A DNA stretch of 39,714 nucleotides from Nitrospinia bacterium (GTDB lineage: Bacteria > Nitrospinota > Nitrospinia > JACRGO01), in the NCBI GenBank assembly GCA_029261755.1, contig JAJDAS010000078.1:1-39714 (forward strand). The letters run 5' to 3'. The position numbers and the translations under genes are program-made. Of the stretch, positions 1 through 11,653 are shown piece after piece (positions within the stretch are counted from its first letter, which is position 1; each line of letters begins with the position of its first letter). A model generated the notes under the pieces. The model was given only the letters and a program-made list of their open reading frames with translations, was not told the DNA's origin and searched no databases.

Positions 1-2179
1 GTCCCCTATGAAAATCGATAAAAATAGAATAGAAAAACTTCATAGAAAAATCTTTCCATTTTGGATGGACAAAAATATTGAAGCAGTCTGGAAAACAAAA
101 GTTGAAGCTGACTCCCAAGCTGTAAAGGTAATTGACCGTAAATTCTTCTTAATTCCCTGGGGCTTGATATCGCTTAATCCGGGAAGTCCCGGATTTGCTA
201 CAGTGGTTCGCAAAGGATTAAAAGGATTAAGGCAGGAAATAAAAGATAAATTAGCTGGAATTAAGAAAAAAACAAATTCGGCTGATGATTCAAAACAGCA
301 GAGTATTAGTAATCTTGAAGCAATGGAAATTGCACTTGATGCAGTGTCAGTTTATACAAAAGAACTCGCAAAGGAGATGGGTCGGCAAGCGAAAGATCCG
401 AAGATCGATAATATTAGAAAAGAGGAACTGAAAAATCTTTCCGAAATTTTGAAAAAAGTCCCTGATAAACCGGCTGAGACCCTTCATGAAGCTTTGCAGT
501 CTATGTGGATTATGTTTATTGGGATCGGGATGGATAGTATGAATGATAATATGTCCGTTGGCAGGCTTGACCAGATATTACAGCCTTATTTTGAAAGTGA
601 TATGAGCAAGAAAACTACCGCTCAGGAAAGGGAAGACTATATAAAATACGTTATTGAATTGGTAGGATGTTTCTTTATGAGATTAAACAGTCACGGAATC
701 TTAATTAATTCCAGACTGGCATGGCACGCGTCAGGCGCTCCAACTGCTACGGCTATTTGTGTTGGCGGCGTAACACCTGAAGGGGAAGATGGTGTTAATG
801 ATATGTCATATATTATCTTAAAAGTAACAGAGATGATGTGTTTGAATAATCCTGATATAGATGTACGTCATATGCCCGGCGTCAATAGTAGAATTTTTTT
901 GGAAAGAGTGATTGAGGTAAATTACATTACAAGCGGCACACCAGCAATTCATAATGACAAAGAAGTAATAAAAGGGTGGGCTGAAAATAATCCCCATTGG
1001 GATATAAAAGATATTAGAAACTGGGTTGCATGTGGGTGCACGGAACCTGTGATGCATGGAAAACATTTTGCAACATCCGGAGATTTAGATAGCAGCCTCG
1101 TGGTTCCTCTTGATATGGCATTGAATAACGGGAATCACCCAAAGTGGGAATTGACGGAAAGCAAGCCGTTAGGTCCACAAAAACCAGGCTTTGATGAGCG
1201 CGCTGAAGATTTGGGTTTTAGTGATTTTAAAGATTTTTATGGTTTTTTTAAAAAACAGTTTGAATTTATATTCGGTCTTGTTATTGACGGTGGATCACAT
1301 AAAATTTTGGAGGCCCAAAAGGAGGCATTAGCGGCACCGCTTTATTCTGCGCTTTTAGATGGATGCATCGAAAGTGCAACCGGAATGCTTCACGGGGGCG
1401 CAAAGTATAATACAGCCGGAGCCGCAATAATCGGGCTCTCCGATGTAATTGATTCTTTGTTGGTGATAAAACAGCTGGTCTTTGAAAAAAAGAAATTTAC
1501 ATTTAAAGATTTAAAAACAGCAATAGACAAAGACTTTGCCCCTAAAGACAAGGATCCAAAAAAATGTCAAGTAGATGGCAGAAAAATCTATGCTCTAATA
1601 AAGCACTCTGTTCCAAAATTCGGTTCAGGTAATGAAGAAGGCAGGAAAATGGCAGACAGGGTTACCCGTATGGTAGGGGATTTTTTACATTCACAAAAGA
1701 CAGGCAGGGGTGGAAAATTTATTGCCGGTTATAAATCAGCAAGCAATCATGTGGTATATGGAAGTGTTTCAGGTGCAGATGCATCGGGCAGGAGGAAAAA
1801 TCGGCCTTATACTCCCGGACTTACTCCCAGCCCCACAGCTACTAAAAATCTGCTGGATAATTTGATAGATGTTGCCAGCCTTGATTCAACCACATGCGAA
1901 AATAACTTCGCATTTAATGTGCGATTTTCCTTTTCTAAATGCAATACCTATAAGCAAAATATCGAGAGGATTACAGATTACATGGAAACATATTTTAATA
2001 GAGGAGGGATGCAAGCTCAACTAAATATGGTTAACAGCGATACTCTCATGGATGCTATGGCAAATCCTCAAGACTACCCCGACCTGATTGTAAGAATTTC
2101 CGGATATACCGTCTACTACACAGATCTGACTAGAGAAGCACAATTGGAAGTTTTAGGAAGGACGGAATTTGGAATCTAA
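1..2179 (+). CDS. Glycyl radical enzyme (PFL-like family), 5' end truncated by window edge
   Basis: Frame is open to position 2 without a stop. Catalytic Cys motif 'VACGCTEP' and C-terminal glycyl loop 'VRISGYTVYYTDLTREAQLEVLGRTE'. The visible 723 aa starts at 'KIFPFWMDKNI', which normally lies about 100 aa into these enzymes. Confidence 0.92.
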   Translation, partial: SPMKIDKNRIEKLHRKIFPFWMDKNIEAVWKTKVEADSQAVKVIDRKFFLIPWGLISLNPGSPGFATVVRKGLKGLRQEIKDKLAGIKKKTNSADDSKQQSISNLEAMEIALDAVSVYTKELAKEMGRQAKDPKIDNIRKEELKNLSEILKKVPDKPAETLHEALQSMWIMFIGIGMDSMNDNMSVGRLDQILQPYFESDMSKKTTAQEREDYIKYVIELVGCFFMRLNSHGILINSRLAWHASGAPTATAICVGGVTPEGEDGVNDMSYIILKVTEMMCLNNPDIDVRHMPGVNSRIFLERVIEVNYITSGTPAIHNDKEVIKGWAENNPHWDIKDIRNWVACGCTEPVMHGKHFATSGDLDSSLVVPLDMALNNGNHPKWELTESKPLGPQKPGFDERAEDLGFSDFKDFYGFFKKQFEFIFGLVIDGGSHKILEAQKEALAAPLYSALLDGCIESATGMLHGGAKYNTAGAAIIGLSDVIDSLLVIKQLVFEKKKFTFKDLKTAIDKDFAPKDKDPKKCQVDGRKIYALIKHSVPKFGSGNEEGRKMADRVTRMVGDFLHSQKTGRGGKFIAGYKSASNHVVYGSVSGADASGRRKNRPYTPGLTPSPTATKNLLDNLIDVASLDSTTCENNFAFNVRFSFSKCNTYKQNIERITDYMETYFNRGGMQAQLNMVNSDTLMDAMANPQDYPDLIVRISGYTVYYTDLTREAQLEVLGRTEFGI

Positions 2180-3089
2180 TCCAATAGTTTTTGATATAAA
2201 AGGGAACTCCCTTGAGGATGGACCGGGTATTCGCTCTGTTATATTCCTCAAGGGGTGCTCCCTTGATTGCGTCTGGTGCCATAACCCGGAAAGTCATAAA
2301 ACAGGCGCAGAGTTGATGTGGCAAAAAGAAAACTGTATTGATTGTGGAGATTGTATAAAAGTATGTCGGCAACATGCTATTTCGAGGGTTTTTCCATTTT
2401 TTGTAAACAGGCATAATTGCAAACAATGCTTTAAGTGCGTTGAAATTTGTCCTTCCGAAGCATTAAAACGTGTTGGGCAAGAGATCGATATTGATAGTCT
2501 CATTAATGAAATCATACCTTATAAACCTTATTTTCAAACATCAGGTGGCGGGGTAACCATTTCAGGTGGTGAACCCGCCCTGTTTGCGGAGTTTGTTTCC
2601 GATCTATTGATTAGATTTAAAAATGAGGGAATTCATACACTCATAGAGACTGCCGGACAGTTTAATTATGAAAAGTTTGAATCTTTGATCTTACCTTATG
2701 TCAATTCTATATTTTTTGACATAAAGCTAATAAATTCAGACGAACATAAAAAATTCTGCGGTATCGATAATAAAGAGATTCTAAATAATTTCATATCACT
2801 TTACCAATTGTCGAAGTCCGAAAAATTTAAACTTCTGCCGCGGACACCATTAATCCCAGGAATAACTGATACTAAAGAGAATATTCTAAATATTGTTAAG
2901 TTTTATAATAAACTTGGAGTAAAAAAGACTGCTTTTTTGACTAACAATCCAGTGTGGTTTAACAAAAAAGACAGTTTGGGGCAAAAAGAAGATTTTGCGG
3001 ATATTGAGCAGTTAAAAAAGTTTTATGATGAGGAGAAAAAAAAGGAGATTATAGGCTGTTTTACAGGAAACGGCATTGAGGTCGTTTGA
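2169..3089 (+). CDS. Glycyl radical enzyme activating enzyme (radical SAM with two extra 4Fe-4S ferredoxin-type clusters)
   Basis: CxxxCxxC motif 'CSLDCVWC', two ferredoxin motifs 'CIDCGDCIKVC' and 'CKQCFKCVEIC', 'GGGVTISGGEP'. TTG start overlaps the GRE stop by 11 nt. Confidence 0.92.
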   Translation: MESNPIVFDIKGNSLEDGPGIRSVIFLKGCSLDCVWCHNPESHKTGAELMWQKENCIDCGDCIKVCRQHAISRVFPFFVNRHNCKQCFKCVEICPSEALKRVGQEIDIDSLINEIIPYKPYFQTSGGGVTISGGEPALFAEFVSDLLIRFKNEGIHTLIETAGQFNYEKFESLILPYVNSIFFDIKLINSDEHKKFCGIDNKEILNNFISLYQLSKSEKFKLLPRTPLIPGITDTKENILNIVKFYNKLGVKKTAFLTNNPVWFNKKDSLGQKEDFADIEQLKKFYDEEKKKEIIGCFTGNGIEVV

Positions 3090-3321: not shown

Positions 3322-3652
3322 ATGGATAATCTGACTATCGAGCAAACCAAATCCCCCCCCCCATCAACCTTGACGCCACCGCCCCCCGCCTGGAGATCAA
3401 GGGCGAATCCTACCCTGAGAACACCGCCAAATTCTATCATCCGGTTTTTTCTTGGCTTGACAATTTTATGAGGGAACTCGACGCGCAAGAGGTCACGGTG
3501 GAGGTGGAGGTAAGCTATTTTAATAGCAGCAGTTCAAAAATTTCATCAACTGGCGGCATCATGAAAATGATGGACTGGCCCAGGTGTATGGGGAAGAATT
3601 CGAAGAAGACCTGGAGAACGTAAATTTTAATTTGGTGGCGTTTTCGGATTAA
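3322..3652 (+). pseudogene. SiaC-family (DUF1987) regulatory protein remnant, frameshifted at a C10 tract and internally deleted
   Basis: Three-part conceptual translation: MDNLTIEQTKSPPP / INLDATAPRLEIKGESYPENTAKFYHPVFSWLDNFMRELDAQEVTVEVEVSYFNSSSSK / FINWRHHENDGLAQVYGEEFEEDLENVNFNLVAFSD*. The pieces match the start, the FYxPVxxWL and YFNSSSSK motifs, and the acidic C-terminus of DUF1987. Confidence 0.75.
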
Positions 3653-3860: not shown

Positions 3861-4385
3861 ATGAACGAAGATAGCATTTTCACCAAAGAACGGAAAGTTG
3901 TTGACAAGGGCTCCAAAGTCATGGAATGCGAGCGCTTCTTGGCTCAAGTGATTGACAATCTTCTCACCAACGCCTCCAAATTTCCCCAACCAAACACCGC
4001 CATATTCGTTACCCTTGAAACTCAAAATCAAACGGTCCGGATTTCGGTGCGGGACGAGGAGCCGGGCATACCTCAGGAGGATTTAGGCAAACTCTTTGGC
4101 ACATTTCAGAGGCTCACCGCTCAACCAACAGGGGGAGAGAAAAGCACGGGCTTGGGGCTATCCATAGTGAAAAAAATCGTAGACGCCCACCAAGGCAAAA
4201 TTAAAGTGGACAGCGAGGTTGCAAAAGGAACCACTTTCACGGTGTTCATCCTTTATAGGCAAACGCTTAGAAATGCGGGGTATCTGTTGATTGGTTTGCT
4301 GTTTGTTATGCTATCCTTACTTCGCCTTCCAGCCAGCAATAGAATACGCTCATTGAGAAATCAGGCTACTATCGAGTGCCTATAA
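3861..4385 (+). pseudogene. Histidine kinase catalytic (HATPase_c) fragment without DHp or sensor domain
   Basis: N box 'LAQVIDNLLTNASKF', G1-like 'DEEPGIP', G2 'STGLGLSIVKKIVDAHQGKI'. No HisKA upstream in frame; the C-terminal ~40 aa tail is atypical. Confidence 0.65.
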
Positions 4386-6159: not shown

Positions 6160-6250
6160 TGCGGTTTCTAAAAAGTTTGTAACTACTCAGGCACAGAGGC
6201 AGAAGGCAAAAAGACAAAAAAAAACTTTTTGAACCACTAATTTTTCGAAG

Positions 6251-7826: not shown

Positions 7827-10679
7827 ATGCATAAACTCTTTTCCTTCAGTGTGGATCGACCCAAGCTTCTCACCGCCGTCATGGTGCTTCTCACCTTTTC
7901 CATGGCCCTGCTGGCGGCCCTGCCAAGTATCTGGCCTGACACTTTCCCTTCCCTCCATGGGGTGAAGGTGGATACCGACCCGGAAAATATGCTCCCCGAA
8001 GATGAGCCGGTGCGGGCCTTTCATAACGGGATGAAAAAGGAACTTTCCCTCCACGATATTCTGGTGGTGGGTATCGTAAATGAGGTCCACCCGGAAGGGG
8101 TTTTCAATCCCGATTCCCTCCGCAAGATATACGAACTCACCGAATTTGCCAAGACCCTGCATTGGACCCACGAAAAGGAATCCGGCAAGAAAGAGGGCGT
8201 CATCGAGGTGGATATGATCGCCCCGTCCCTGGTGGACAACATGGAGCAGGGCGGCGCCGGAGTGATCAAATTTGAATGGCTTATGCCCGCTCCCCCCGCT
8301 ACTCAGGAAGAAGCCATAGCGGTCCGGCACAAGGCGGAGCGGCTTCCTTTCCTAAAAGGAACGGTGCTCTCGGAAGACGGAAAGGCCATGGCCCTATACC
8401 TGCCCCTCACCTCCAAAGATGTAAGTTACGAGGTGGCTTCCAAGCTCCAGGAGAAGATCGATTCCTTTAAGGGTGACGAACACTACTACATAACAGGGTT
8501 ACCGGTGGCGGAGGATACCTTCGGGATGGAGATGTTCAAGCAAATGGCCATTTCTGCGCCCCTGGCCATGCTGGTGATCTTCCTCCTCATGCTCGTCTTT
8601 TTTCGCAAGCTGGTCCTCATCGTCTCGCCCCTCATTGTTGCCTTGGTCTCGGTGATTTGCACCATGGCCCTCCTGGTTGCCACGGGGAACACGGTACACA
8701 TCATGAGTTCCATGATCCCCATCTTCATTATGCCCATAGCGGTTTTGGACGCCATTCATATTCTTTCGGATTTTTTTGACCGTTACCAGGAGACCAGGGA
8801 CCGCAGGAAAACCATTCTCGCGGTTATGGACACCTTGTCCAAGCCCATGTTCTATACCACCTTAACCACGGCGGTTGCCTTCTCTTCCCTGGCCCTGGCC
8901 CCTATTCCGCCTGTGCAAATCTTCGGTCTCTTTGTGGCTTTCGGAGTGTTCATGGCCTGGTTCTGGACCGTCACTTTTATCCCGGCCTACATCATGCTCA
9001 TCCCACAAAAATCCCTGGAGGGTTTCGGCCTCGTCCACCATGGTGAAGAGGATCCGGACGCGGGCTCTTTCATGGCCCGAATGCTTGCCGTTCTCAGTCG
9101 CCTTACCTTTCACCGCGCCGGATGGATAATGGCCATCTCCCTGGTCCTTACCACCATTGCGGTTTATGGGATCAGCCTCATCCAAATCAACGACAACCCA
9201 GTGAAGTGGTTCGCGCCATCGCATCCCATCCGAGTGGCGGATAAGGCCCTGAACGAACATTTCGGTGGCACCTACATGGCTTATCTGGCCCTGGAGCCGG
9301 AGGGTAAAGCGTGGTCTCCCGAAACTTATCAAAAGGATTTTGCCCAAAGATTAGGGAAACGGGCCACGGAGTTGGAGGAAATGGTTCCTTCTGCTCCAAC
9401 GGTATTTAATGTAGTGAAAGAAGAAGCGGCCCAGGCTCACAAAACAGCTAATTCCAAAATAGAGATGCTGAATGGCCTGGAGGAGTGGACGGACGAGCAA
9501 AACCTATCCGCTCCCGATGACCAGTTGGACGCCTGGGAAGAGGTCTTCCTCTTCCTGGACGAAGAGAGGCAGAGGGACCAGATTTTCAAACAACCCGAGG
9601 CTTTGGAATATGTAGCTGCTCTCCAGAAAAGGCTGCTGGATACCGGGGTGGTGGGGAAATCCAATTCCCTGGCCGATATCGTGAAGACGGTGCACCGGGA
9701 GCTACGTTTAGGTGAAGAAAAAGAGTTTAGGATTCCCAAATCTTCCAACGCCGTGGCCCAAACACTGATCTCTTTTCAGAACAGCCACCGGCCGGACGAC
9801 CTCTGGCATTTTGTCACTCCCGATTATTCCAAGACCAGCCTTTGGGTGCAGCTTAAGAGCGGCGACAACATGGATATGGCCAGGGTGGCCAAAAGTATTG
9901 ACGAATTCGTCACCGACAATCCGCCTCCCTTCTCCCTGAAGCACCAGTGGTTCGGACTCACCTACATCAATGTGATCTGGCAGGATAAGATGGTGAGCGG
10001 GATGTTCCAGTCCTTCATCGGTAGCTTCCTGGTGGTGCTGCTTATGATGACCATTCTTTTCCGATCCTTTTTGTGGGGGCTCCTCTCCATGATTCCCCTC
10101 ACCGTCACCATCGTCTTGATTTACGGGGTCATCGGCTTGGTGGGTAAGGATTACGATATGCCCGTGGCGGTTCTTTCCTCTCTCTCCCTGGGATTGGCGG
10201 TGGACTATGCCATTCACTTCCTGGCTCGGAGCCGTGGACTTCAGGAGAAACACGGAGCCTGGTCGCAAACCATTATGCTTGTGTTCGGGGAGCCGGCAAG
10301 GGCCATCACCCGGAATGTGGTTGTGGTGGGCGTGGGGTTTCTTCCTCTGCTGGCCGCGCCTCTGCTCCCCTACAAGACGGTGGGAATTCTCATAGCTGCC
10401 ATCCTGCTTACAGCGGGGCTGGCTTCCCTCTTGATCCTTCCCGCCATGATCACCCTTATGGAAAAATGGCTCTTCACTTCTTCGGAAAAAATCCGCTTCA
10501 CCTGCCAATGCGGAACCTGTATTTTTTCGGGGATCATGGTGGTTGCGCTGGTGGTGATCAACGTCCACCAGTTTCTCTCCGTGGGCTGGACCACTCTCAC
10601 TTGGGTGAGTGCGGTTGCCATTCTGGTTTTGATGGGTATATGCTTCACAATGTCTAAACGGGCGGAGTGCAAAGCCTAA
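7827..10679 (+). CDS. MMPL/RND superfamily exporter
   Basis: 950 aa with two repeats of multi-TM bundle plus large periplasmic loop; 'DPENMLPEDEP', 'IPIFIMPIAVLDAIHILSDFFDRYQE', 'LSLGLAVDYAIHFLARSR'. Confidence 0.9.
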   Translation: MHKLFSFSVDRPKLLTAVMVLLTFSMALLAALPSIWPDTFPSLHGVKVDTDPENMLPEDEPVRAFHNGMKKELSLHDILVVGIVNEVHPEGVFNPDSLRKIYELTEFAKTLHWTHEKESGKKEGVIEVDMIAPSLVDNMEQGGAGVIKFEWLMPAPPATQEEAIAVRHKAERLPFLKGTVLSEDGKAMALYLPLTSKDVSYEVASKLQEKIDSFKGDEHYYITGLPVAEDTFGMEMFKQMAISAPLAMLVIFLLMLVFFRKLVLIVSPLIVALVSVICTMALLVATGNTVHIMSSMIPIFIMPIAVLDAIHILSDFFDRYQETRDRRKTILAVMDTLSKPMFYTTLTTAVAFSSLALAPIPPVQIFGLFVAFGVFMAWFWTVTFIPAYIMLIPQKSLEGFGLVHHGEEDPDAGSFMARMLAVLSRLTFHRAGWIMAISLVLTTIAVYGISLIQINDNPVKWFAPSHPIRVADKALNEHFGGTYMAYLALEPEGKAWSPETYQKDFAQRLGKRATELEEMVPSAPTVFNVVKEEAAQAHKTANSKIEMLNGLEEWTDEQNLSAPDDQLDAWEEVFLFLDEERQRDQIFKQPEALEYVAALQKRLLDTGVVGKSNSLADIVKTVHRELRLGEEKEFRIPKSSNAVAQTLISFQNSHRPDDLWHFVTPDYSKTSLWVQLKSGDNMDMARVAKSIDEFVTDNPPPFSLKHQWFGLTYINVIWQDKMVSGMFQSFIGSFLVVLLMMTILFRSFLWGLLSMIPLTVTIVLIYGVIGLVGKDYDMPVAVLSSLSLGLAVDYAIHFLARSRGLQEKHGAWSQTIMLVFGEPARAITRNVVVVGVGFLPLLAAPLLPYKTVGILIAAILLTAGLASLLILPAMITLMEKWLFTSSEKIRFTCQCGTCIFSGIMVVALVVINVHQFLSVGWTTLTWVSAVAILVLMGICFTMSKRAECKA

Positions 10680-10768
10680 GTGCTGGGTGAGGCTTTTTGC
10701 AAATGGTAAGACCGGGTTTCGTCCCGGTCCTCCGCTTTATAAACCTATTTTTTTTGAAAGGATCGGTT

Positions 10769-11653
10769 ATGGAAAATTTTAAAAAAAAATACCACCAATC
10801 TAAAGTCAAAAATCTAAAATCTAAAATATTTTTCCCTGTTTTTTCAGGATTGCTGTTTTTGATCTTTGCTTTAATCTTCACGTTCGCCAACAAAACGTCC
10901 GCCTCCGAGATCTCCGTGGATACCATCATCGAAAAGGCCAACCGGGCTTCCTACTATCAGGGGAAATCCGGTCGCGCCAAGGTTGCCATGAGCATCAAAG
11001 ACAGCCAGGGCCGTGAGCGAAAAAGGCAGTTCACCATCTTGCGCAAGGATGAGGAGCCGGAAGGGGATATATCGGATAAGGTCTGCGGTGAGCAGAAATT
11101 TTATGTCTTTTTTCAGCGTCCTGCCGATGTAAACAAGACAGCCTTCATGGTATGGAAGCATCTGGATAAGGACGACGACCGATGGCTGTACCTTCCCGCT
11201 CTGGACCTGGTGAAGCGCATTGCCGCCAGTGACGAGCGCACCAGCTTTGTGGGGTCACACTTTTTTTATGAGGACGTATCGGGTCGGGGCATCAACGAAG
11301 ATAAGCATGAACTGCTGGAGACCTCCAAGAATTATTACGTCATCAAAAGCGTTCCAAAGAAACCGGAGGCGGTGGAGTTTTCCTATTACAAGATGTGGGT
11401 TCACCGTACCACCTTCATCCCCATCAAGATTGAGTATTACAACAAGAAAGAAGAGAACTACCGCGTTTACGAGGCGCTTAAAGTGGACACCATCGACAGC
11501 TACCCCACCGTGACGCAATCCAGGATGAAGGACCTTGCCTCCAAGGGACAAACAATCCTTTCCTACCCCAAGGTCAAGTTCAACATCGGCCTTCCGCCGG
11601 ATATCTTTACAGAGCGTTACCTGCGAAATCCCCCGAAAAAATATTTGAGGTGA
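10769..11653 (+). CDS. Outer membrane lipoprotein-sorting (LolA-like) protein
   Basis: N-terminal signal anchor, 'KVAMSIKDSQGRERKRQFTILRKDE...FFQRPADVNKTAFMVWKHLDKDDDRWLYLPALDLVKRIAASDERTSFVGSHFFYEDVSGR'; directly follows the RND exporter. Confidence 0.85.
   Translation: MENFKKKYHQSKVKNLKSKIFFPVFSGLLFLIFALIFTFANKTSASEISVDTIIEKANRASYYQGKSGRAKVAMSIKDSQGRERKRQFTILRKDEEPEGDISDKVCGEQKFYVFFQRPADVNKTAFMVWKHLDKDDDRWLYLPALDLVKRIAASDERTSFVGSHFFYEDVSGRGINEDKHELLETSKNYYVIKSVPKKPEAVEFSYYKMWVHRTTFIPIKIEYYNKKEENYRVYEALKVDTIDSYPTVTQSRMKDLASKGQTILSYPKVKFNIGLPPDIFTERYLRNPPKKYLR

Follow-up and report, generated by a model that had tools for sequence, protein, structure and literature searches.

A truncated glycyl radical enzyme gene in a Nitrospinia bacterium falls within a clade linked to an SCP2-like domain

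The window analysed here is the whole of contig C78 of genome G000 (39,714 bases; the genome comprises 5.6 Mb in 653 contigs). It begins inside a gene for a glycyl radical enzyme (GRE), and this enzyme belongs to a clade in which the GRE is linked throughout to an SCP2-like lipid-carrier domain, a link missed by an earlier note made from the sequence only. We consider it reasonably probable that the window GRE is a radical dehydratase or lyase whose lipid-like substrate is carried by the SCP2 domain. Literature searches found neither a description of this GRE clade nor, when GRE was combined with SCP2 or sterol carrier protein, such a pairing.

The GRE gene and its activase

The GRE gene lies at positions 2 to 2179 of the forward strand, in an open frame without a start codon upstream; its 5′ end has been lost because the contig begins inside the gene, and the C-terminal 725 residues are retained. 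These residues match the Pfam domains PFL-like (E=1.7e-110, 371 bits versus a cut-off of 24.3) and Gly_radical (E=6e-20, 72 bits versus 22.2). Positions 103 to 647 of the PFL-like model are covered and about the first 100 are absent, and by alignment to full-length relatives the GRE domain lacks about 130 residues. Both catalytic signatures claimed in the earlier note were found intact. The thiyl Cys and the Glu of the C-x-E motif, Cys346-Thr347-Glu348 in GCTEP (1037 to 1045), were located in the sequence and by alignment to CutC, HypD and GDH, and Gly701, the glycyl radical site in RISGYTVYY (2102 to 2104), falls in the Gly_radical domain.

The adjoining gene on the same strand (2169 to 3089) is intact and encodes a GRE activase of the radical-SAM type that contains two ferredoxin-type 4Fe-4S motifs, identified with Pfam and with the PFLE_PFLC model (268 bits, cut-off 174). 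Its TTG start overlaps the GRE stop codon. With its PFL-like and Gly_radical domains, the catalytic Cys, the Gly loop and an activase in the operon, the window protein is a member of the GRE superfamily. No other PFL-like match occurs in the genome, and a search of the same genome for the missing N-terminus, using the N-termini of two relatives and PF02036, returned nothing usable.

Origin of the GRE and activase genes

The two genes form an AT-rich block, as had been claimed. Their G + C contents are 0.393 (GRE) and 0.355 (activase) against 0.461±0.036 for the 19 other genes of the window, and at third codon positions 0.339 and 0.327 against 0.527±0.060; in codon-usage distance the GRE ranks first (0.228) and the activase second (0.219), with one 224-aa ORF close behind (0.217). 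The decayed sequence reported downstream is also real. At 3351 to 3652 of the forward strand, at the edge of the block, a gene for a SiaC-family regulatory phosphoprotein survives as a frameshifted remnant whose two frames each match Pfam (E=2e-20 and 5e-5). An orphan piece of a histidine-kinase ATPase (3861 to 4385) adjoins this remnant.

The nearest GRE relatives are from two Bacteroidetes metagenome-assembled genomes (MAGs; 49-50% identity) and from Fangia hongkongensis (48%), and the relatives in class-mates of the source genome reach only about 32-33%. No GRE match was found in the only same-genus genome, which matches other parts of the contig at 72-74%. The alien composition, the lack of a same-genus copy and the kinship with Bacteroidetes and Fangia support the earlier suggestion of horizontal acquisition, which is probable and the simplest reading. 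The block could instead be an assembly chimera or a contaminant foreign to this genome: it lies at a contig edge, its composition is alien, contamination of the bin stands at 5.3%, and close copies are missing from class-mates. However, it runs into the decayed SiaC gene and then into host-like genes, and the contig elsewhere matches the same-genus genome, and we regard a chimera as improbable. If it were one, the identity of the GRE gene would not change.

The statement that no transporter or microcompartment genes accompany the block holds for the downstream side only, because nothing lies upstream on the contig. Further along (7827 to 11653) lie the genes for an MMPL-family exporter, which has sterol-sensing/Patched-like matches, and then for a LolA-like lipoprotein-sorting protein. 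These two genes were considered as partners of the GRE but are probably unrelated to it, being 4.7 kb away and of host-like composition. Two short segments of the window (about 10770 to 10834, and 6170 to 6213) have matches of 76-94% in about twelve contigs of the same-genus genome, which suggests dispersed repeats.

An SCP2-linked clade of GREs

The first full-length relatives of the window GRE came from a nine-genome phylum (37-40% identity), and their roughly 150 extra N-terminal residues match Pfam SCP2. The same N-terminal domain is present in L080 from Spirochaetes (38%) and in L030, L031 and L032 (48-50%), the proteins of the two Bacteroidetes MAGs and F. hongkongensis, which are about 1000 residues long. 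Scanning contigs with the window protein alone as query returned nothing, and with an alignment including distant relatives it returned 54 loci. When a profile of these domains was searched against all ORFs of the loci collected by then, its hits were confined to one set of GRE loci. The domain is fused or adjacent to the GRE at some 42 distinct loci, drawn from six lineages (about 42 of 42 other clade members), and absent at about 47 GRE loci outside the clade, some of which have short flanks; both figures were counted by distinct contig and, the members being related, are counts rather than numbers of independent events.

The SCP2-linked GREs, the window protein among them, form one clade with a support of 0.99 in a maximum-likelihood tree and 99% ultrafast bootstrap support when more members were included. 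A separate SCP2-like gene stands beside the GRE in the basal members (G004, G008, G011, G013, G015, Bacteroidales genome G251 and two deltaproteobacterial MAGs). In all others the domain is fused to the GRE, and the fused proteins make up a single subclade with 100% support; the tree points to one fusion event in the history of the clade. Since the window protein sits deep inside the fused subclade, next to Bacteroidetes proteins, parsimony indicates that its lost N-terminus has an SCP2-like domain, and the lost part is predicted to comprise this domain together with the roughly 130 GRE-domain residues. For the window protein itself, then, we infer the domain from its position in the tree.

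In the Spirochaetes class of L080, 20 of 46 genomes have matches, with up to three copies per genome, and the fused domain was present in all 23 full ORFs examined; among 393 genomes of one Bacteroidales order only a handful have a clade member. The SCP2-GRE frame of genome G104 is split by one in-frame stop in the linker (L025:1063-1065; L087:9038-9040), and L025 was accordingly rejected as a two-gene version. At two loci a second small SCP2-like ORF lies beside the first (L084:7224-7640 in G013 and L022:11517-11924 in G008).

The SCP2-like domain

The domain of L025 scores 25.1 bits against Pfam SCP2 (PF02036; cut-off 21.3). Eight of 39 domain copies match this family at E<0.01 and most fall below the Pfam cut-off; two of the 39 match Alkyl_sulf_C, likewise of SCP2-like fold. 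When a profile of the 39 copies was searched against the PDB with E up to 10, three sequences were returned, all of them sterol carrier protein 2 (E about 0.1). An AlphaFold2 model of the domain (pLDDT 83) was compared with known structures by Foldseek, and ranks 1 to 44 were all SCP2 folds with probabilities of 0.99-1.00, including alkyl sulfatases, UbiJ, and human and rabbit SCP2. Profile search, model and structural comparison agree on a predicted SCP2 fold for the N-terminal domain of the clade. It shares the fold of the SCP2 family, that is, sterol carrier protein 2, UbiJ and the C-terminal domain of the alkyl sulfatases SdsA1/Pisa1 (Foldseek probability 1.00, weak profile matches), but its sequences mostly lie under the cut-off of that family. 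The full-length AlphaFold2 model (pLDDT 62) was too weak for pocket analysis.

Relationship to characterised GREs

The window GRE scored under every curated subfamily cut-off tested, in agreement with its earlier description as a GRE with activase of unassigned subfamily. Against TIGR01774 (PFL2/glycerol dehydratase; cut-off 678.2 bits) the partial window protein reached 329.6 bits, and the full-length relatives L030 and L032 reached 389 and 440. Against HypD, sulfopropanediol dehydratase and CutC, all with cut-offs of at least 1000 bits, it scored 314, 279 and 253, and the full-length relatives were likewise below these cut-offs.

The best-scoring characterised relatives were HypD by profile (NF043068; structure 6vxc) and N-methyl-cis-4-hydroxyproline dehydratase by sequence (8id1). 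They have in common with the window GRE the PFL-like fold family, C-x-E, the Gly loop and a paired radical-SAM activase. However, the window GRE lies on a branch separate from HypD, its score of about 314 bits compares with a cut-off of 1100, neither HypD nor the 8id1 enzyme has an SCP2 domain, and the window's subgroup has lost the His160 equivalent. The same eliminase machinery is used by glycerol/propanediol dehydratase (1r8w, 5i2g) and CutC (5fau), namely a thiyl Cys, a Glu two residues on and a glycyl radical, but these enzymes act on small soluble substrates without a lipid-carrier domain, and the window GRE misses the curated cut-offs tested for them.

Active-site residues and proposed reaction

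Cys-x-Glu, the pair used by eliminating GREs such as CutC, HypD and glycerol dehydratase, is present in all 38 aligned clade members. The unusual Thr pointed out in GCxEP is real and unique to the window, the other 37 members having CVE. In the alignment column that holds catalytic His164 in glycerol dehydratase, 29 of the 38 have His; the exceptions are Glu in three Spirochaetes SCP2-GREs (L106:6639-9779, L107:6770-9904 and L108:6476-9541), Pro in the window (Pro60, 179 to 181, placed by alignment) and four Bacteroidetes proteins, and Ala in Fangia. The two groups with a changed residue lie together in the tree (100%). In diol dehydratases this His assists the departure of the leaving group; its replacement by Pro, Ala or Glu therefore suggests that in the window's subgroup the group expelled is probably other than plain water. 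Elimination would thus be ancestral in the clade, with the leaving group or the geometry altered in this subgroup.

The reaction that we propose would begin with the activase placing a radical on Gly701, from where it would pass to Cys346. Cys346 would then abstract a hydrogen atom from the alcohol-bearing carbon in the polar head group of a lipid-like molecule, while Glu348 would deprotonate the alcohol and the neighbouring substituent would be expelled to leave an aldehyde or ketone. The SCP2 domain would bind the hydrophobic tail and hand the substrate to the barrel. The lipid-like substrate, the type of reaction and the handover are inferred.

Alternatively, the SCP2-like domain may be a structural or membrane-tethering module, or an aid to activation, with a small soluble polyol, amine or hydroxy acid as the GRE substrate, as in the known relatives. 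The best profiles and structures are indeed those of small-substrate enzymes (HypD, CutC, glycerol and propanediol dehydratase), and the clade keeps C-x-E and mostly the glycerol dehydratase His. Yet such a domain is absent from every structurally solved, characterised GRE that the searches returned, the SCP2 matches of known structure are all domains that bind lipids, quinone precursors or alkyl sulfates, and the domain has been kept through wide divergence, also as a separate gene. We judge this alternative rather unlikely, although it is the strongest competitor among those discussed here.

Two further possibilities would place the enzyme among other known GREs. An X-succinate synthase-like enzyme, adding a hydrocarbon chain to fumarate with the alkane carried by the SCP2 domain, would agree with PMC12222630, according to which the GREs known to take hydrophobic substrates are those that activate alkanes and toluene. 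MasD (9o8u) and BssA (4pkc) do match the window GRE, but with 127 and 115 bits against 264 for dehydratases; small-subunit genes are absent from the neighbourhoods read and the eliminase Glu is conserved, making this reading very improbable. The earlier note had also seen a resemblance to arylacetate decarboxylases, and this was not supported. The window GRE has the C-x-E that is present in these decarboxylases as well, and shows weak similarity to the models for indoleacetate decarboxylase (IAD, E=7e-64) and hydroxyphenylacetate decarboxylase (HPAD, E=4e-52). The scores of 216 and 177 bits, however, are far under the cut-offs (1100 and 1150), and HypD, sulfopropanediol dehydratase and CutC all score higher. 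Of the full-size matches in the PDB, HPAD (2y8n) ranks with the weakest, the GRE is not followed by a gene for a small subunit, and an arylacetate decarboxylase is scarcely credible.

Neighbour genes at the clade loci

Genes at the clade loci suit aldehyde and lipid chemistry and speak for the preferred reading, a radical dehydratase or lyase of lipid-like molecules. At 14 loci of the Spirochaetes class the GRE has next to it a TetR regulator, always of one family, as would suit an inducible function; the SCP2-GREs of L107 and L108 share an operon with genes for an aldehyde:ferredoxin oxidoreductase and an amidohydrolase. Further neighbours are an Fe-dependent alcohol dehydrogenase (L116, L119), a Zn alcohol dehydrogenase (L123), SDRs (L018, L035, L122), a Hydrolase_4 hydrolase (L033), and GlpD-like and FGGY kinase genes (L112, L114). 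One neighbour protein of L114 has alkyldihydroxyacetonephosphate synthases as its only PDB matches at E<1e-20; such ether-lipid neighbours occur in only one or two genomes, and those of L114 are on the opposite strand.

Recurrent neighbours were also found at the basal loci with standalone SCP2 genes (L094:8520-10876, L019:6810-9941, L084:10593-11966 and L085:9185-10329). They are a pair of small membrane proteins that carry a GWP[AG]WE motif and belong to no Pfam family (four loci), and DUF6765 (two loci, L094 and L019), which weakly matches Zn-dependent phospholipase C. Neighbour genes differ between lineages and none is universal; together they point to lipid or alcohol/aldehyde metabolism rather than one fixed pathway.

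Implications

To our knowledge, the characterised eliminating GREs act on small soluble substrates (choline, glycerol, hydroxyproline, isethionate), and the GREs with hydrophobic substrates add hydrocarbons to fumarate. The SCP2 link suggests that the GRE class also acts on lipid-like molecules without oxygen. A more far-reaching proposal, that the SCP2-linked GREs are dedicated anaerobic radical enzymes of lipids, some of them dismantling alkylglycerol or other ether lipids without oxygen, is speculative and on balance doubtful. With a lipid carrier tied to it across six or more bacterial lineages, the GRE clade would bring lipids within reach of anaerobic radical chemistry and offer a handle on the open question of how lipid head groups and ethers are broken down anaerobically without oxygenases; the cultured member F. 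hongkongensis makes the lipid reading testable.
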